From: a virus
Length of the DNA: 46,788 nucleotides
Virus record (IMG/VR): IMGVR_UViG_3300045970_001344
Location: 1-46,788 of that record
Strand: one strand, 5' to 3'
Part shown: piece by piece, positions 2,372-30,691 of the stretch
Numbering within the stretch: the first letter of the stretch is position 1
Layout of the letters: each line of letters starts with the position of its first letter
The notes under the pieces: generated by a model
Databases searched by the model: none
Told to the model about the DNA's origin: nothing
Seen by the model: the letters and a program-made list of their open reading frames with translations, nothing else
Position numbers and translations under genes: made by a program

Positions 2372-3271
2372 ATGATGTACGAAAATAAGATGGCCGTCGC
2401 CATTCTGGCCAATGGTCGTGTCCTTCGCGAAGTCAAGGACACTGTCTACATGCCCTTCGGGCAAGACTACGTAATCCGTTTCAAGAACATGAACAGCCTT
2501 CGGGCCCTCGTTCGTGTCTCTGTAGACGGTCAAGACGCTACTGAAGGCACCAGCCTCATCGTGCCAGCCAACGGCACCGTCGACCTGGAGCGCTTCCTCA
2601 AGGCAAGCAACCTCGAACAGGGTCACAAGTTCAAGTTCATAGAGAGAACTGCCAAGATTGAAGATGGCCCACGTGGCATCAAGGTCGAGGACGGTCTGAT
2701 CCGCGTTGAGTTTGAGTTCGAGAAGCAGCACGCCAAGATTGAGGACGTCTACACGCGTCAGCACTTCATCAACGACTACTGGCATCGTCCGATCTACCGT
2801 AGCACGCCAATCTATGGTGATGTGTGGTGCTCTACTGAGTTGAAGAGCGTTGCTGGCACCGCTGCAACGCTTAGCAGCAACTCATCAACCGCATCGCTCA
2901 GCAGTGAAGCAAGTGGCACAGCAACTACCCAGCAAGCTACCTTCAACATGGCCAACATGAAGGCCATGGCAGCATCAGTTTCCCCCGAGGCCCAGGCTAC
3001 GGTCAACAACGCCTTCGTGCCTGATCAGGCGCTTGTCGGCATCACTGTGCCAGGCGCGATCTCGGAGCAGAAGTTCACGACTGGCGCTTGGTTTGCCGTT
3101 GATGGGCAGAAACACGTCATGATCCTGAAGCTGATGGGGACCTATGGTGATGTGGCGGTTGAAGAGCCAGTCACTGTCAAGACCAAGATCGAGTGCCCAA
3201 CCTGTGGCACGAAGAGCCAGCCAGGCGTGAAGTTCTGCGGTGAATGTGGCACGTCGCTCGTGACCCTTTGA
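2372..3271 (+). CDS. Hypothetical protein with C-terminal zinc ribbon
   Basis: 299 aa from the ATG at 2372 (another ATG at 2375; GGAG lies at 2363-2366 and fits either). An in-frame start at 2297 would precede the ribosome site and is not favoured. The last 25 residues form a CxxC...CxxC ribbon (CPTCGTKS, then FCGECGTSL). A Ser/Thr/Ala-rich low-complexity linker at about 175-215 separates a beta-rich N-terminal part from the ribbon part. Its own late promoter suggests a virion or assembly role, but I do not recognise the family. Confidence 0.75.
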   Translation: MMYENKMAVAILANGRVLREVKDTVYMPFGQDYVIRFKNMNSLRALVRVSVDGQDATEGTSLIVPANGTVDLERFLKASNLEQGHKFKFIERTAKIEDGPRGIKVEDGLIRVEFEFEKQHAKIEDVYTRQHFINDYWHRPIYRSTPIYGDVWCSTELKSVAGTAATLSSNSSTASLSSEASGTATTQQATFNMANMKAMAASVSPEAQATVNNAFVPDQALVGITVPGAISEQKFTTGAWFAVDGQKHVMILKLMGTYGDVAVEEPVTVKTKIECPTCGTKSQPGVKFCGECGTSLVTL

Positions 3272-3805: not shown

Positions 3806-4453
3806 ATGGACCACACCAAATACCCACGCACCTGGCACCTACCCTTCAGCCCTGGTGCCACGTCTGATGACAAGACCCTGTCGAGCTGTGAGCAGTTCGA
3901 AGGTGAGGATGTTGTCATCACAGTGAAGATGGACGGTGAGAACACCACCGGCTATCAATCAGGATACCTGCACGCTCGGTCCCTTGACAGCCGAGGCGGT
4001 GAAGATCGGGACTGGGTGAAGCAGTTCTGGGCAGAACGTGCCCACCTTCTGCCAGCCGGCTATCGTGTCTGTGGTGAGAACCTCTGGGCCCAGCACAGCA
4101 TCCACTACGATGCACTGCCATCCTACTTCCTCGGCTTCAGCATCTGGAATGAGCAGAATGTCTGCCTCTCCTGGGCTGACACCGTCGAGTGGTTCGAGCT
4201 GCTCGATGTCAAGCCAGTTGAAGTGCTCTACCAAGGTACCTTCTCTGAAGAGGCGCTGCGGTATGCATCGGCCGCCTGTAAAGAACTGTGGCAGCACCGT
4301 GAAGGCTACGTGGTTCGGCTTGCCCGGGAGTTCAAGTACGATGACTTCAAAACAAGTGTGGCCAAGTATGTTCGTGCAGGGCACGTGACGACAGATACAC
4401 ACTGGCGGCACAGCGCCATCAAGCCCAACGGTCTGGCACTCGGGTCTAAATAG
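3806..4453 (+). CDS. RNA ligase (Rnl2-like nucleotidyltransferase)
   Basis: 215 aa. Seals RNA ends through a covalent lysyl-AMP intermediate. Visible motifs: motif I KMDGENT with the adenylated lysine near residue 41, a motif Ia/III-like stretch (RVCGENLWAQHSIHY, YFLGFSIW), motif IV EGYVVR and motif V KYVR. It is short, a catalytic core without an obvious extra domain. It is expressed from an early promoter directly at its ATG. With the downstream tRNA array, repair of tRNAs cut by host anticodon nucleases is a reasonable role, as for T4 Rnl1; that is inference. Confidence 0.85.
   Translation: MDHTKYPRTWHLPFSPGATSDDKTLSSCEQFEGEDVVITVKMDGENTTGYQSGYLHARSLDSRGGEDRDWVKQFWAERAHLLPAGYRVCGENLWAQHSIHYDALPSYFLGFSIWNEQNVCLSWADTVEWFELLDVKPVEVLYQGTFSEEALRYASAACKELWQHREGYVVRLAREFKYDDFKTSVAKYVRAGHVTTDTHWRHSAIKPNGLALGSK
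4447..4452 (+). promoter_or_regulatory. Late promoter (TAAATAG) inside the ligase stop
   Basis: CTAAATAG overlaps the last codons of the RNA ligase gene, 22 bp before the ATG at 4475; GGAG follows. Confidence 0.5.
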
Positions 4454-10166: not shown

Positions 10167-10173
10167 ATATAAT

Positions 10174-10248
10174 GGGCGTACCTTCTGGGAGAAGGCTCCG
10201 GCAGATCACCTGTCGACCCGATCGGTTCGATTCCGATCACGTCCACCA
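10174..10248 (+). tRNA. tRNA-like gene, isotype unclear
   Basis: Good acceptor (GGGCGTA/CACGTCC), T arm and CCA, but a tight D arm (CCTTC-TGGGA-GAAGG) and an anticodon arm CGGCA-GATCACC-TGTCG with A instead of U at position 33. Read by position the anticodon would be TCA. If the first arm is instead read as the anticodon arm (CTGGGAG), it would be Pro (GGG) without a D arm. Confidence 0.5.
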
Positions 10249-10679: not shown

Positions 10680-10755
10680 GCACCGCGAACTCGAGTGGCA
10701 GAGTACCTCCCTCTTAAGGAGACTTGTCAGGGTTCAAGTCCCTGGCGGTGCACCA
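10680..10755 (+). tRNA. tRNA-Lys (CTT)
   Basis: Acceptor GCACCGC/GCGGTGC, A73, CCA. Anticodon loop CTCTTAA. A second tRNA-Lys (CTT), with an insertion, lies at 14321. Confidence 0.9.
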
Positions 10756-10840: not shown

Positions 10841-10923
10841 ATCTCAACCGCTTCGCGACCTGACGGTTATCCTTTCACGATTCCCCCGTCAAACTGCACG
10901 CTCGCAAGAGCATTTGTTGAGAT
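10841..10923 (+). ncRNA. Structured stable-RNA candidate inside the tRNA array
   Basis: Outer 8-bp stem ATCTCAAC/GTTGAGAT encloses three hairpins: CGC-ttc-GCG, TGACGG...CCGTCA and GCTC-GCAA-GAGC. It sits in a tRNA slot with the usual ACAAT spacers but has no T loop and ends CTA, not CCA. The CTCGCAAGAG tip recurs in the RNA at 14106-14225. T4 also has stable non-tRNA RNAs in its tRNA cluster. Confidence 0.55.
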
Positions 10924-11101: not shown

Positions 11102-11178
11102 GGGACGTTTTTGCGATTACTCAGCAGATTGGTACTAAATCGCGTGATACGAGGTTCGATTCCCCGTACGTTCCACCA
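11102..11178 (+). tRNA. tRNA-like gene, no regular anticodon loop
   Basis: Acceptor GGGACGT/ACGTTCC, T loop TTCGATT and CCA are intact, but the T stem has a mismatch. The anticodon region forms only GATT-GGTACTA-AATC without U33, and a competing 6-bp stem GCGATT/AATCGC would destroy the D arm. Confidence 0.45.
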
Positions 11179-11185
11179 GAACAAT

Positions 11186-14105: not shown

Positions 14106-14225
14106 TGCAAGCCGTTGAAAATCGGTTATCGGTTAATGCTGCCTCTGTGTAAGGGGCTTCGCTAGAGCGGGATTCAAAGCCCGACACCCTCGCAAGAGGT
14201 TTTACCGACTTCGCTTTTGCTTGCA
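14106..14225 (+). ncRNA. Second structured RNA in the tRNA array
   Basis: Long-range stem TGCAAGC (14106-14112) / GCTTGCA (14219-14225), then TCGGT/ACCGA, and hairpins GCCTC-TGTGTAA-GGGGC, CGGG-attcaaag-CCCG and CCTC-GCAA-GAGG. Shares the CTCGCAAGAG tip followed by TTT with the RNA at 10841. No ORF and not a regular tRNA. Confidence 0.5.
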
Positions 14226-14235
14226 GTATTTCAAT

Positions 14236-14311
14236 GCCCCGTGAGTGAATGTGGAGTGCACAACGGTTTTGTAGTCCGTGGGATGGGGTTCGACTCCCCA
14301 ATGGGGCACCA
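14236..14311 (+). tRNA. tRNA-Thr (TGT)
   Basis: Acceptor GCCCCGT/ATGGGGC, A73, CCA. Anticodon arm ACGGT-TTTGTAG-TCCGT with one T-T mismatch next to the loop. Confidence 0.8.
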
Positions 14312-14320
14312 TAGAATAAC

Positions 14321-14450
14321 GCCGATGTAGCTCAGTGGTAGAGCGCCTAAAAACATCGTCCGCACCCTTTGTTGGATTCCAACCGCACGCAGATGGTTAT
14401 CCACTCTTAATGGGGAGGTCAGCAGGTTCGATTCCTGTTCGTCGGCGCCA
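14321..14450 (+). tRNA. tRNA-Lys (CTT) with a 53-nt insertion
   Basis: 130 nt. Acceptor GCCGATG/CGTCGGC, D arm GCTC-AGTGGTA-GAGC, anticodon loop CTCTTAA, T loop TTCGATT, G73 and CCA are all regular. Bases 14348-14400 interrupt the 5' side of the anticodon stem. Removing them restores CCCCA-CTCTTAA-TGGGG and a 77-nt tRNA. The insert itself folds (CATC/GATG, then GTTGG-att-CCAAC). Confidence 0.8.
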
Positions 14451-14456
14451 AACAAT

Positions 14457-14530
14457 GGGAGTATGACGTAATGGTAGCGTCTCCGGCTTTTACCCGGATG
14501 GCCTGAGTTCGATTCTCAGTGCTCCTACCA
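14457..14530 (+). tRNA. tRNA-Lys (TTT)
   Basis: Acceptor GGGAGTA/TGCTCCT, A73, CCA. Anticodon arm TCCGG-CTTTTAC-CCGGA. Confidence 0.9.
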
Positions 14531-15018: not shown

Positions 15019-15089
15019 ACCGCGTCTGATGGATCGCCAGGGGTCTTCTAAGCCCTAAGGGAGAGGTTCGATTCCTCTACGCGGTACCA
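15019..15089 (+). tRNA. tRNA-Arg (TCT)
   Basis: Acceptor ACCGCGT/ACGCGGT, A73, CCA. Anticodon arm GGGGT-CTTCTAA-GCCCT. Short D arm. Last tRNA of the array. Confidence 0.85.
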
Positions 15090-18271: not shown

Positions 18272-18727
18272 ATGCTGGTCCAACTTATCTACGTATCGGT
18301 TCCGGTAATTGATGTGGCTTCAGCCACATCGCAGTTTATCATAAATGCACAGCACAACAACAAGCTGGAAAATATCAGTGGAATGTTGATCTCCAACAAA
18401 AACTTCTACGTGCAGATGATCGAGGGCGATCGCACGGCGATCAACACTCTGTTTCAAAAGATCTGCCAGGACCCACGTCACACGAAGCCAACGATTGTTC
18501 GGTACTGTGAAGTGCGTGCACGTGAATTTGAAGATTGGTCGATGCTGCACGTCTCATTTGCTGAGCTGCAATCTCACTTCGTCACCGCGATCATACCATA
18601 TGATAAAATAACTCCTGAGCTGCTATCAGGCATCAGCGCACTCTCGCTGATCAGGCGCTTGGCGGCCATCGTACGCGTCAGCGGTGAGATGCCGTTGCTT
18701 GATGGACCATTTGTTTTTCATGATTAG
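18272..18727 (+). CDS. BLUF-domain blue-light sensor
   Basis: 151 aa. Residues 3-95 match the BLUF flavin-binding fold: LIYVS with the photoactive Tyr7, NN...ISGML with Asn30, FYVQMIEG with Gln48, DPRH, and W89-S-M91. These are the residues that hydrogen-bond FAD and switch on blue light (compare Tyr8/Asn32/Gln50/Trp91 in Slr1694). The C-terminal 55 residues are short with no output enzyme, so it would act by protein contact, like short BLUF proteins. It may be coupled to the tail-anchored coiled-coil protein just upstream. Confidence 0.85.
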   Translation: MLVQLIYVSVPVIDVASATSQFIINAQHNNKLENISGMLISNKNFYVQMIEGDRTAINTLFQKICQDPRHTKPTIVRYCEVRAREFEDWSMLHVSFAELQSHFVTAIIPYDKITPELLSGISALSLIRRLAAIVRVSGEMPLLDGPFVFHD

Positions 18728-22667: not shown

Positions 22668-23158
22668 CCCTTAACAAACGGATTAACCACGCAGTAGAGA
22701 GCGTGGGTGCCATCTGCGCAGCAGTGTCATCACTTGCTGCTGCGTGGATCTTGTTCTATGCGCCACTTTGGTGGCTCCTACCACTGATCGGCATCTCATT
22801 CATGGCGTACTATGTGGTCCTACTGGCAGTCGGCTTCATCATCGGCGCGCGCTACAGCCACGAGAAGTGGATCGCCGAGACCACAGGCGATGCGCTGGAG
22901 AAGACGCCCGACGATGCTCAGCTCATTGGCACAGTCATCAATCGTGGCGAGGTAATCGGTCGCTACATGGACCACGACATCCATGAGTGGATCGAGATCA
23001 AGACCACCAAGGGTGTCAAGCGCTTCAACTTCCTCGGAGGTGCGCCCTTCGACCGTGCGGGCAACATGCTGCTTCCTCGCGAGGATGGCTTTGCCTGCCT
23101 CGACACCTGTCTCTACGAGATCGTCAAGGAAGCCGGTCAACCTGAAATCACTTCATGA
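22664..23158 (+). CDS. Membrane protein with cytoplasmic or periplasmic domain
   Basis: 164 aa. Two hydrophobic helices at about 15-35 and 38-62, then a soluble beta-rich domain (residues 75-160). Not a recognised family. Overlaps the preceding gene. Followed by the structured-RNA locus. Confidence 0.65.
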   Translation: MTLNKRINHAVESVGAICAAVSSLAAAWILFYAPLWWLLPLIGISFMAYYVVLLAVGFIIGARYSHEKWIAETTGDALEKTPDDAQLIGTVINRGEVIGRYMDHDIHEWIEIKTTKGVKRFNFLGGAPFDRAGNMLLPREDGFACLDTCLYEIVKEAGQPEITS

Positions 23159-23164
23159 AAAGTG

Positions 23165-23192
23165 TGTACAGTTTGTGCCGGTGGTATAAAAT
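23165..23192 (+). promoter_or_regulatory. Early-type promoter of the structured RNA
   Basis: TGTACA (23165-23170), 16 bp, TAAAAT (23187-23192). Same spacing as the other early promoters. Predicted start near 23199, at the first hairpin. Confidence 0.6.
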
Positions 23193-23194
23193 AG

Positions 23195-23690
23195 CTACAT
23201 GCACTGGAAACAGTGCGTAACGATTGGATGGAACCGATCGGCGATGGTTATCTACTCATGGAGCTACTAGCGGCGAAAGCCAATGGAAGCAAATCGCCAC
23301 CCGTAAGGGTGAAAACAGAATGCAAGACCTGGTGATGTCTTCAATCTCCGTCCCACTCTTTGTTCCCCCTTTCTCTTCAATCGTCCCTATTCATCAACTT
23401 CAACCCGTAGACCGTTGGTATTGGTTATCAACGTCTAAGCACTGTCTCACGTAAGCCCTGTGTTCCATCGCAAGTTGGAAAGCAAGCCGGACAAGCAGAG
23501 CTGGTATCTGTGACGTACTACAGATGTAGGTACTCGTGCCGAATAACGAGTGTAGGTTAGTCTTGTCCGAATACAAGGACGTTTCTGGGGTCGAAATCCA
23601 GACGGCTACCCATCGCCGCAAGATGGGTGTAGGAAGCGGGTCATTGCGACTTAGCGACCGAAGAACCCGATCCCGCCCTTTGTCTACGAG
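23195..23690 (+). ncRNA. Large structured non-coding RNA (about 490 nt)
   Basis: No credible ORF. In order: GCACTG-GAAA-CAGTGC (23201-23216); CGATTGG...CCGATCG (23221-23240); GCGAT...ATCGC (23241-23297) enclosing GGC-GAAA-GCC; ACCC-GTAA-GGGT (23299-23310); AAGAC...GTCTT; a pyrimidine-rich single strand (23342-23395); TTCCA...TGGAA; CGGACAAG...CTTGTCCG (23488-23569) enclosing ATCTGT...ACAGAT and ACTCGT...ACGAGT; a T-arm-like TCTGG-ggtcgaaat-CCAGA (23584-23602); ACCCATC...GATGGGT; a last GCGGG...CCCGC stem before CCTTTGTCT. Several GNRA loops. The next genes encode a mobile GIY-YIG enzyme and a TROVE protein, so a Y-RNA or ornate large RNA is likely. Confidence 0.7.
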
Positions 23691-23715
23691 TTGATTTTGA
23701 TCATTTGGAAAGTAA

Positions 23716-23751: not shown

Positions 23752-24495
23752 ATGAAGACAGCGAAAATTTATGTTTTGACAGACCCTCGAGAATCGAGCG
23801 TGATCAAATGTTATGTTGGCAAAAGCATTGAGCCTAAACGTAGATTTAAGAATCACCTGATAGCAAAGGGAGACACCAAACGCGATAGATGGATTAAAAG
23901 TCTACAGCGGCAGAACCTCCTGCCGCTATTGCTAATTCTTGAAGAATGTGCATCTGAGCATCGCAAAGATTGGGAACAGCCGGAACGAAACTGGATTTCT
24001 AAGTACAGGGCTGATGCAAGATATGATGTACTAAATCATACTGGTGGCGGAGAAGGTATTTCAGATATTGATGACGAAACTCGTGGGCGGATGTCTGAAG
24101 CTGCCAAGAAGAGATACATCAATCACAGGGCAATATACGATGCTTCATATGCCAGTGAAGAGCGCAACAGCAAGATATCTGCAAGCCTGACTGGTAAGAA
24201 GCATGAATGGAATAAAGACTTACCGCAAAATCAACCAGGATGGAAACATACCAAAGAAGCAAAGATCGCAATATCATTAGCCGCGACCGCCAACAACTTA
24301 GCAAGGGCTGCGGCTGGAAGATATAAGAAAACTGCTAAACCCAAAATAAAATCATCACGTGATCTAACTGCACCACGTGATGATCTGTGGAAACAACATC
24401 AATCTGAAGCTGCCACTCTTAGGTGGCAACGTTATCGCCAAAGGAAAGAAAATGAGCAGCGTGTACATCAATCATGCGAAGTCGATCTCGGCTAA
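23752..24495 (+). CDS. GIY-YIG homing endonuclease
   Basis: 247 aa. GIY-YIG core: KIYVLTDP then KCYVGKSIEPKRRFKNH, WI.SL, LEEC.SEH and the catalytic E of WEQPERNWI. A NUMOD3-like DNA-binding region follows (GKKHEWNKDLPQNQPGWKHT). AT-rich compared with the TROVE gene. It lies between the structured RNA and the TROVE gene and its last 44 bp overlap the TROVE start, so it appears to have inserted at this locus. Confidence 0.85.
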   Translation: MKTAKIYVLTDPRESSVIKCYVGKSIEPKRRFKNHLIAKGDTKRDRWIKSLQRQNLLPLLLILEECASEHRKDWEQPERNWISKYRADARYDVLNHTGGGEGISDIDDETRGRMSEAAKKRYINHRAIYDASYASEERNSKISASLTGKKHEWNKDLPQNQPGWKHTKEAKIAISLAATANNLARAAAGRYKKTAKPKIKSSRDLTAPRDDLWKQHQSEAATLRWQRYRQRKENEQRVHQSCEVDLG

Positions 24496-26056
24496 GAGCA
24501 GCCTGACACCACAGTCCTTGCCTATCCCCGGGCGTGAACAAGAGATGAAGCAAAACAATGCCGGTGGGTTTACATTTACCCTTGATCAATGGGGCATTTT
24601 GGATAGGTTTCTTTCCATAGGTTCCGAGTCGGCTGGCTACTACGTCGGCCAGAAGGAGACAACTGCCAAGTCGTTCGCGACCGTGAAGGCCTGCATCGCA
24701 GCCGACGGTGTTCGCGTGGTGAACCGCGCCCTCGAGTACTCACTTGCCGGGCGTGCACCGAAGAATGACCCGGCTGTGGTGGTCATCGCTCTCGCAGCGG
24801 TGTACGGTGACGACGTCACCAAGCAAGCGGCCTACGATGCGCTGCCGCGTATCGCCCGTACCGGTACCTGGCTGTTCATGTTCGTGTCGATCCTCGACAG
24901 CCTGGGCAAGTGGAACGCTGCTGCCAAGCGTGGTGTCGCCAAGTGGTACACGTCGAAGGACATGGACAAGCTGGCCCTCCAGCTGCTCAAGTACCAGTCC
25001 CGCAATGGTTGGTCGCACCGTGACGTGCTCCGTCTCGCTCACGTGAAGCCGTCGTCGGACGTGCAGGGCAACCTGTTCCGCTACGCCGTCGGTAAGGAGC
25101 TCGAGCTTGGCGCCGCCGTGCCGCAGCTCCTGGTGGACTTCGAGTACCTGAAGAAGGCCGAGGACGCCAAGACCGTGCTGCGTCTCGTCGAGGGCAACGA
25201 CGCCCTGACCTGGGAGATGGTGCCTTCGCAGTTCCTGAAGGACAAGGATGTGCTCGCTGCTCTGGTGAAGAACATGGGTCTGACGGCAACTATCCGCAAG
25301 CTGGGTGCCCTGACGGCCCATGGCGTGATCGCTCCGCTGTCGGCTGGTTCGAAGGACGTCATCGCGAAGCTGAGCGATGTGGAGGCCCTGCGCAAGCAGC
25401 GCGTTCACCCGATCACGCTGCTGCAGGCCTTCAAGCAGTACCAGGCTGGCCACGGCGAGAAGGGTTCCCTGACCTGGAACGCTGACCAGCGCGTGCTCGA
25501 TGCCATCAACGACGCCTTCTACGCCTCGTTCGCGACGCAGGAGAAGACGAGCGACAGTTACCTGATGGGTGTGGACTGCTCCGGCTCCATGTTCGGCGCG
25601 CACGTCAACGGTTCTCCGAACCTGACGGCTGCTGAAGTCGCTGGCGTCATGGCCCTCGCGGTCGTGAAGAACCAGCCGAACTACTGGATCGGTGGTTTCA
25701 ACACCAAGATGGGCGAACTGAAGATCACGCCAAGCATGCGTCTCGACGCGGTGCTGCAGGTGATGCAGCGCTTCTCGTGGGGTGGCACCGACTGCGCCCT
25801 GCCGATGCTGCACGCAGCACAGCACGGGATGGAGGTGGACAAGTTCGTCACCATCACCGACTCGGAAACTTGGGCAGGTAGCATCCAACCTACACAAGCA
25901 CTGCGTGACTACCGGCAGAAGTTTGGTCGGGCAGCGCGCAATGTTGTCATCGGTACATCCATGACTGAGTTCACGATCGCTGATCCTCTGGACCCTTATC
26001 AGCTTGATGTTGCTGGCTTTGACAGCGCAGCACCGCAGCTCATCGCCCAGCTGTGA
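24452..26056 (+). CDS. rsr: Ro60/TROVE RNA-binding protein
   Basis: 534 aa from the ATG at 24452 with AAGGAAAG upstream. The N-terminal two thirds is a TROVE HEAT-repeat ring (FTLDQWGILDRFL, YYVGQKETTAKS, RTGTWLFMF, NGWSHRDVLRLAH), which binds single-stranded RNA ends in its hole and Y RNA outside. The C-terminus is a von Willebrand A domain with a MIDAS: DCSGS (about 374), GGTD (about 443), TDSE. Bacterial homologues (Rsr) take part in RNA decay and rRNA maturation with Y RNAs. The neighbouring 490-nt RNA is the obvious candidate partner. Confidence 0.92.
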   Translation: MSSVYINHAKSISAKSSLTPQSLPIPGREQEMKQNNAGGFTFTLDQWGILDRFLSIGSESAGYYVGQKETTAKSFATVKACIAADGVRVVNRALEYSLAGRAPKNDPAVVVIALAAVYGDDVTKQAAYDALPRIARTGTWLFMFVSILDSLGKWNAAAKRGVAKWYTSKDMDKLALQLLKYQSRNGWSHRDVLRLAHVKPSSDVQGNLFRYAVGKELELGAAVPQLLVDFEYLKKAEDAKTVLRLVEGNDALTWEMVPSQFLKDKDVLAALVKNMGLTATIRKLGALTAHGVIAPLSAGSKDVIAKLSDVEALRKQRVHPITLLQAFKQYQAGHGEKGSLTWNADQRVLDAINDAFYASFATQEKTSDSYLMGVDCSGSMFGAHVNGSPNLTAAEVAGVMALAVVKNQPNYWIGGFNTKMGELKITPSMRLDAVLQVMQRFSWGGTDCALPMLHAAQHGMEVDKFVTITDSETWAGSIQPTQALRDYRQKFGRAARNVVIGTSMTEFTIADPLDPYQLDVAGFDSAAPQLIAQL

Positions 26057-30156: not shown

Positions 30157-30323
30157 TCAACAACCACGTCGAGGTCTATCCGCTCCGTGCGTTGTGGATT
30201 GTTCCTATCGTCTTGTTGAGTGGTTTCATCAATGACGTCATACTGTCCACGGCCTTTGCCTTTGCCATGGGCTTCGTCACATCCAAATTGTTCCCAGTCG
30301 TAGTTCGCAAGGAGACCAAGTGA
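30153..30323 (+). CDS. Small membrane protein
   Basis: 56 aa from the ATG at 30153 (overlaps the DHFR stop). Two closely spaced hydrophobic stretches (ALWIVPIVLLSGFI, STAFAFAMGFVTSKLF). Sits directly before the bactofilin gene, to which it is coupled by GTGA, so it could anchor that protein; inference. Confidence 0.6.
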   Translation: MINNHVEVYPLRALWIVPIVLLSGFINDVILSTAFAFAMGFVTSKLFPVVVRKETK

Positions 30324-30691
30324 AGAACCCCTTCAAGTCGCAAGGCTTTGACAGCATTATCGGGCCCAGCACCACCATCGTGGGAGCAGTCGATGTCTAT
30401 GGCACCATGATGGTCGATGGCAAGATCGTCGGCACCGAGATCTCTGGCAAGGATGGCACCGTTTTCGTGAACGGCTCCGTTGATGTCGAGATCATCCGCC
30501 TGGCCAACCTAACCATCTGTGGTGTGGTCAGTGTCAAGGAGGTCTTCGTGACAGGAGTTCTGGCTGTGAAGAAGGGTGCAGCCCTCGAAGCTACCAACAT
30601 CCACTACACCACGCTCGTTATTGAGCCCGGGGCGGCGATTACGGGTAATCTGCAGCGACTGGATCAATCTACAGCTGCTTCTGCCGCGTAA
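30320..30691 (+). CDS. Bactofilin
   Basis: 123 aa from a GTG with GGAG upstream. Bactofilin (DUF583) beta-helix: SIIGPSTTIVGAVDVYGTMMVDGKI, then repeated V.V.G.V.V..I strands and the end VIEPGAAITGNLQ. Bactofilins polymerise without nucleotide into filaments that act in cell shape and protein localisation. The flanks are short, as in minimal bactofilins. In a phage it might organise infection structures or disturb host shape; a host-derived acquisition is likely. Confidence 0.88.
   Translation: MKNPFKSQGFDSIIGPSTTIVGAVDVYGTMMVDGKIVGTEISGKDGTVFVNGSVDVEIIRLANLTICGVVSVKEVFVTGVLAVKKGAALEATNIHYTTLVIEPGAAITGNLQRLDQSTAASAA

Follow-up and report, generated by a model that had tools for sequence, protein, structure and literature searches.

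The tRNA-like gene at positions 14321-14450 of the window (the whole stretch of DNA analysed, a 46,788-base virus record of a jumbo-phage lineage) carries a 53-nt insert in its anticodon stem, which raises the question of what the insert is and whether the RNA containing it works as a tRNA. Relatives of this lineage, collected through its PrkA-like protein, reach 368 kb. Genes for PrkA/YeaG-like, DUF444 (YeaH) and SpoVR proteins follow one another in this phage at 30770-36884, and a BLUF blue-light sensor domain and a bactofilin are encoded at 18272-18727 and 30320-30691.

A tRNA-like gene interrupted after nucleotide 28

A tRNA array lies between 9.9 and 15.1 kb, and 22 genes were called by ARAGORN in the window. 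The locus 14321-14450 is an additional tRNA-like gene missed by the program, as are those at 15019-15086, 10172-10247 and 11102-11179, the first of which reaches 30.9 bits under the Rfam tRNA model while the other two look odd. The parts of the locus and the most relevant neighboring gene are as follows.

14321..14347, + strand: tRNA body, 5′ part (acceptor 5′ strand 14321-14327, D arm 14330-14344, nt 26-28)
14348..14400, + strand: insert, a predicted Ro60-binding-type Y-RNA stem in the form of a hairpin (from the fold and the covariance model)
14401..14450, + strand: tRNA body, 3′ part (anticodon hairpin 14401-14415 with CTT at 14406-14408, T arm, acceptor 3′ strand 14440-14446, G73, CCA)
10680..10755, + strand: insert-free tRNA-Lys(CTT) of the same array, making the anticodon redundant (ARAGORN)

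The acceptor stem (GCCGATG/CGTCGGC), the D stem (GCTC/GAGC), G26 and C27-C28 are followed by the insert, which is placed after nt 28, and then by C29-C30-A31, the loop CTCTTAA, TGGGG, the T arm and G73-CCA. When 14321-14347 and 14401-14450 were joined, the resulting 77 nt folded into a cloverleaf whose anticodon stem (CCCCA/TGGGG), perfect over its 5 bp, closes that loop. Both the sequence reading and the cloverleaf fold thus bear out the preliminary description of a clean insert in the anticodon stem and of the 77-nt tRNA rebuilt by its deletion, with cut points that slide by one or two bases owing to CC at either side.

The same description named the gene tRNA-Lys(CTT). The anticodon CTT is indeed present, but a decoding tRNA-Lys is another matter. 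A tRNA-Lys normally has A73, whereas this nominally Lys RNA has G73, an anticodon one base away from that of Asn, and escaped ARAGORN. Together with the plain tRNA-Lys(CTT) nearby, G73 argues against 14321-14450 as a decoding tRNA-Lys.

The insert is a conserved hairpin with compensatory changes

In the predicted fold, the insert forms an outer helix P2 (14355-14363 with 14389-14397, 8 of 9 pairs) and an inner helix P1 (14371-14375 with 14379-14383) closed by a 3-nt loop (14376-14378), and displays UUUG at 14368-14371, a bulged C at 14384 and GGUUAU at 14395-14400. The fold energy was not below that of shuffled sequences (z -0.88, 31/200), so the earlier remark on its independent folding carried little weight; the hairpin itself stands on strong comparative evidence.

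A blastn search with 14236-14530 matched the insert itself in four relatives, inside tRNAs, at the same place and with other anticodons (for example G009, 77% over 89 nt, E 2.4e-10). The exact pattern of the window's own insert had no match in viral_contigs, and a 22-base gapped pattern matched 15 stretches there, all within tRNAs except L062. No filter was set on P2 in this search, and P2 paired 9/9 in 11 of the stretches, in 8 positions in two, in 6 in L071 and in 5 in L062, which was discarded as a chance match outside any tRNA. When 84,980 bacterial and archaeal genomes were scanned with this gapped pattern, 13 sequences matched; none of them resembles a tRNA, and the best scored E 0.0067 with the model. 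Two looser patterns were also run on viral_contigs; the matches listed were mostly chance and were kept only when P1 had 3 bp or more and P2 paired in 7/9 positions or more, a filter that biases pairing counts on those rows.

A covariance model, R1, was built from 17 homologous sequences, 14 of which fit the search pattern (it includes ACCG and TTTGT and constrains P2 and P1 in part, leaving the varying pairs free); rows L043, L048 and L123 do not. R1 matched the window at 14352-14401 with 62.2 bits (E 6.8e-13). Its alignment contains two helices with compensatory changes, in which 97.5% of the cells are paired and 7 of 14 pairs show two-sided changes. The two-sided-change cells number 26 against 7.0 in shuffles, the covariation score is 0.412 against 0.199 (0/500 shuffles as high), and slid versions of the alignment pair at only 18 to 62%. 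Since relatives carry the insert with compensatory changes, it is neither a chance structure nor the assembly error that had been allowed for at first.

The insert corresponds to the Ro60-binding stem of Y RNAs

The consensus of the loci, derived before any comparison with Y RNAs, reads P1 - CCG N9 GGUUAUC on one strand and UUUG - P1′ on the other, with a bulged C. In human hY4 the other strand, with UUUG, is the 3′ end. The hY4 5′ end, GGCTGGTCCGATGGTAGTGGGTTATC, as given in the available portion of PMC5763536, agrees with the consensus at all fixed positions and in spacing. According to the accessible parts of PMC4030889 and PMC4726728, the Ro60 site consists of the bulged C and a 3-nt bulge opposite. 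The insert fits the Y-RNA helix definition in the same part of PMC4726728, having a CCG / UUUG loop and, beside P1, a single bulged C14384 that is constant in alignment A4, partly forced by the pattern in 14 of the 17 rows. Judged from its sequence, the insert is the conserved Ro60-binding stem of Y RNAs, to which Ro60 would be expected to bind. The vertebrate Rfam Y_RNA model stayed below its cut-off, with a single match (E 2.5) across 14 records.

As for Y RNAs, a Ro60 orthologue is encoded in the same genome.

24377..26056, + strand: Ro60 homologue with TROVE (2.1e-23) and vWA_Ro60 (1.2e-48) domains; putative GTG start, as listed

The closest structures in PDB are D. radiodurans Rsr (2nvo, E 1.7e-102) and human RO60 (9nen, E 2.1e-92), and the histidine of human position H187, named in the portion of PMC4030889 at hand, is conserved in the alignment by manual count. 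A TROVE domain was found in 19 of 28 records and 8 of 11 further ones (27/39), against 1 of 14 control genomes; these co-occurrence counts are no formal association test because the records were picked by PrkA or by the RNA itself. Nine records measure 250 kb or more; eight of them have both TROVE and an R1 match and G017 has neither, and the eight R1-positive records without a TROVE match are all fragments of 42-162 kb.

Three further regions of the window display the same motifs.

10841..10923, + strand: free-standing Y-like element A between tRNA genes, with P1 outermost and CCG..GGTTATC..TTTG; no Rfam match
14106..14225, + strand: free-standing Y-like element B, enclosing a T-arm-like hairpin; no Rfam match
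23150..23700 (approximate extent), + strand: conserved non-coding stretch directly upstream of the Ro60 region, with CCG..GGTTATC cores at 23234 and 23412

The last has a counterpart at the matching place in many relatives and no Rfam match up to E 10, and is a candidate for a large Ro60-associated RNA. A further topology occurs in L055 around 11274, where a tRNA-Leu-like gene lies inside a Ro-stem module (CCG..GGTTATC..tRNA..AAAACATCGATC..TTTTG).

Distribution among phages and the split anticodon stem

R1 gave 47 matches in 25 of 39 phage records, with 1-4 copies per phage among the positives. All but one (G004:26864, E 0.066) were examined with a script that parses tRNAs by acceptor, D, T and anticodon pairing. 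Of these 46, 37 were recognized as tRNAs: in 28 the insert lies within the anticodon stem (class S), and in nine it was assigned to the anticodon loop (class L, of which G038:40254 is probably misparsed). Among the nine unparsed matches, seven are tRNA-like by eye, and the remaining two, G040:14398 and G043:16455, look ambiguous. By eye, a Ro-stem-like insert also appears to sit in the D loop of a tRNA-Lys(CTT) whose anticodon arm is intact (G021:19939-19989, L049; R1 E 5.7e-4). Only one marginal match (E 0.09) was obtained on 15 whole named phage records, which leaves the tRNA-ended form without a known cultured carrier among them.

To exclude a duplicate (G024:140767) and a misparsed case (G018), 26 of the 28 class S genes were used in an exon-swap test. 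The split anticodon stem pairs 5/5 by Watson-Crick rules in 20 of them, and the mean number of split-stem pairs fell from 4.73 to 3.72 after the 5′ parts were swapped, none of 5000 swaps being as good. These 26 chimeras have 17 anticodons. Insert-free tRNAs with the same anticodon were present for 16 of the 30 chimeras listed, in the genome parts covered, so the redundancy seen in the window is not general. The anticodons GUN appear enriched (9/26 against 94/661, p 0.009; post hoc and uncorrected), which we treat as a lead only.

Circularly permuted relatives in cultured phages

A blastn search of the tRNA against annotated phages returned matches at unannotated spots near Ro-like genes. The cultured Ro60 phages Myrna, Asterius, BearBQ, Big4 and CcrColossus contain unannotated YrlA-type Y RNAs with the same joint in circularly permuted order, namely Ro stem, anticodon hairpin, T arm, loop-closed acceptor stem, D arm and Ro stem, so that the RNA ends lie inside the Ro stem and the acceptor is closed by a short loop. 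In Myrna the joint reads CC|..|CTC-CTGTCAA-GAGGG. A permuted-order detector was positive for Myrna, Big4 (twice), Asterius, BearBQ and G040, in which the permuted form adjoins the tRNA-ended form; CcrColossus was read by eye, and a further row, L123, was rejected as spurious. All seven permuted RNAs give a 5/5 stem in their best register, as chosen by a script that maximises pairing. Their Rfam YrlA scores are 27 to 42 bits against a cut-off of 69, and R1 had no match on eight cultured-phage loci, as expected from the permuted topology. The shared joint indicates that the window RNA and the permuted Y RNAs are one fold with different ends.

Unannotated YrlA-type RNAs with an anticodon hairpin were observed at L325, L326, L327, L328, L329 and L330 (around 2900-3060). 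These loci belong to cultured phages of Mycobacterium, Caulobacter, Microbacterium and Gordonia and lie near Ro-like genes or within the tRNA array.

A proposed retained tRNA/Y-RNA chimera and its alternatives

The identity of the stem, its fold, joint and covariation, the Ro60 gene and the permuted relatives, all read from sequence, lead us to regard the 130-nt RNA as probably a tRNA/Y-RNA chimera, a tRNA-ended permutation of YrlA-type RNAs, which would retain its insert and act as a Ro60 tether or decoy. The tRNA body appears complete, with its own 5′ end and a CCA 3′ end; the Ro60-binding stem with its 3-nt loop is predicted to branch off the anticodon stem on its 5′ strand, after nt 28, where it would form a three-way junction with the short anticodon hairpin. 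The chimera would most likely stay unspliced with phage Ro60 bound to the stem, and the tRNA body would serve as a tRNA mimic and pass through tRNA processing. Such a mimic may either tether Ro60 to tRNA-handling enzymes or present a Ro60-shielded decoy to tRNA-attacking nucleases, a form in which the nuclease-blocking idea of the preliminary description may still hold.

The preliminary description had proposed that the insert might be an intron. In a protein-dependent version, Ro60 would bind the stem, an unknown endonuclease would excise it and the phage RNA ligase would join the halves into a working tRNA-Lys. The ligase named in that description is encoded in the window and is relevant only here.

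3806..4453, + strand: RNA ligase (PF09414)

The perfect 77-nt joined form and the complementary split stems (5/5 in most cases, and equalled by no swap) agree with splicing, as do U33 and A37, which most chimera loops retain and which a spliced functional tRNA also needs. However, the permuted Y RNAs share the joint and end in the Ro stem, where excision would leave no tRNA. By eye, excision from class L restores no consistent 7-nt or otherwise normal loop, and some chimera anticodons (ATC, ACA, ACT and CTA) are unsuited to decoding; A34 other than ACG occurs in 3 of 26 chimeras against 8 of 661 insert-free tRNAs (p 0.0065). In the window, G73 and the insert-free tRNA-Lys(CTT) also speak against it. 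Because excision does not explain the permuted form, a retained chimera is favored, and we consider an intron unlikely.

Equally improbable, in our estimate, is that the chimera works as a tRNA: it would be aminoacylated while still holding the Ro stem and would thereby carry Ro60 to the ribosome or EF-Tu. The acceptor stem, T arm and CCA are intact in most chimeras and class S keeps its anticodon hairpin, which would suit such a role. Yet the insert sits in the anticodon stem, around which, going by established tRNA structure, the decoding site would leave little space, anticodon and body features are mismatched, and class L has no anticodon. That the gene is a functionless pseudogene, a tRNA broken by recent insertion, would fit the insert-free isoacceptor in the window but is very improbable, given 1-4 copies per positive phage and conservation in divergent phages with covariation that already contradicts it; the transposed hairpin of the preliminary description is likewise not supported, given a conserved Y-RNA-type stem at the same joint across many phages.

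The retained chimera invites a broader proposal, which we offer tentatively and with some doubt: giant phages may have made a tRNA-ended Y-RNA family out of ordinary tRNA genes, CCA-bearing and with many anticodons, whose members stay permanently docked to the phage Ro60 and, shielded in this way, act as decoys or sensors toward anticodon nucleases of the host. If true, YrlA and a plain tRNA would be sisters, the former circularly permuted, and the pair would show the origin of a Y RNA from a tRNA. Two RNA classes formerly mere look-alikes are now linked, as the three-way joint of YrlA occurs with true tRNA ends, on many tRNA backgrounds and in Ro60-encoding phages. This would lead directly to how YrlA arose and to the purpose of its tRNA mimicry, would offer a candidate phage RNP for tests against anticodon nucleases, and points to a class of genes overlooked by standard tRNA finders.

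Comparison with known systems

Bacterial group I tRNA introns also interrupt the anticodon arm. Such introns measure hundreds of nt, whereas the insert has 53 nt and lies in the stem rather than the loop; Rfam searches across the array at E up to 10 found no family for it, with neither a group I nor a ribozyme match, and the earlier exclusion of a group I intron is upheld. No bulge-helix-bulge (BHB) tRNA-intron motif was seen by eye at the exon-insert joints in the predicted fold. The HDV-like Theta ribozymes, as described in the accessible part of PMC10879173, are likewise small structured RNAs beside phage tRNA genes, but they sit at tRNA 3′ ends and cleave there. Theta and other self-cleaving ribozymes were dropped for the insert, which has no Rfam ribozyme match and forms a stem inside the tRNA.

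Vertebrate Y RNAs (hY1, hY3, hY4 and hY5) share P1, CCG with the bulged C, the 9-nt spacing, GGUUAUC and the opposite UUUG with the window RNA, but have no tRNA body. Y RNAs and YrlA are already known in phages, according to the consulted section of PMC7765460, which cites a review; our literature search, with most subscription papers outside its reach, found no earlier report of tRNA-ended Y-RNA chimeras. The available text of PMC7790460 suggests the tRNA-like domain of Salmonella YrlA as a competitive inhibitor of anticodon nuclease, and excerpts of PMC8394870 and PMC4726728 describe Rsr tethered to PNPase by a Y RNA.

Among the nearest known systems, YrlA (RF02553) shares with the window RNA a Ro stem attached to a tRNA-like domain that has D and T arms. 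The best overlapping Rfam YrlA match reached only 22.2 bits (14249-14368, covering the preceding tRNA too) against a gathering score of 69, and such weak matches were not used as proof because they fall mostly on plain tRNAs and 13 of 14 control genomes also give matches to the model. The Rfam YrlA consensus has its Ro stem in the position of the anticodon arm and no anticodon hairpin, as in class L. The two differ in their ends: YrlA builds its Ro stem from the 5′ and 3′ ends of the RNA and has a loop-closed acceptor, whereas the window RNA does not, its acceptor ending with CCA and its Ro stem being closed by a 3-nt loop.
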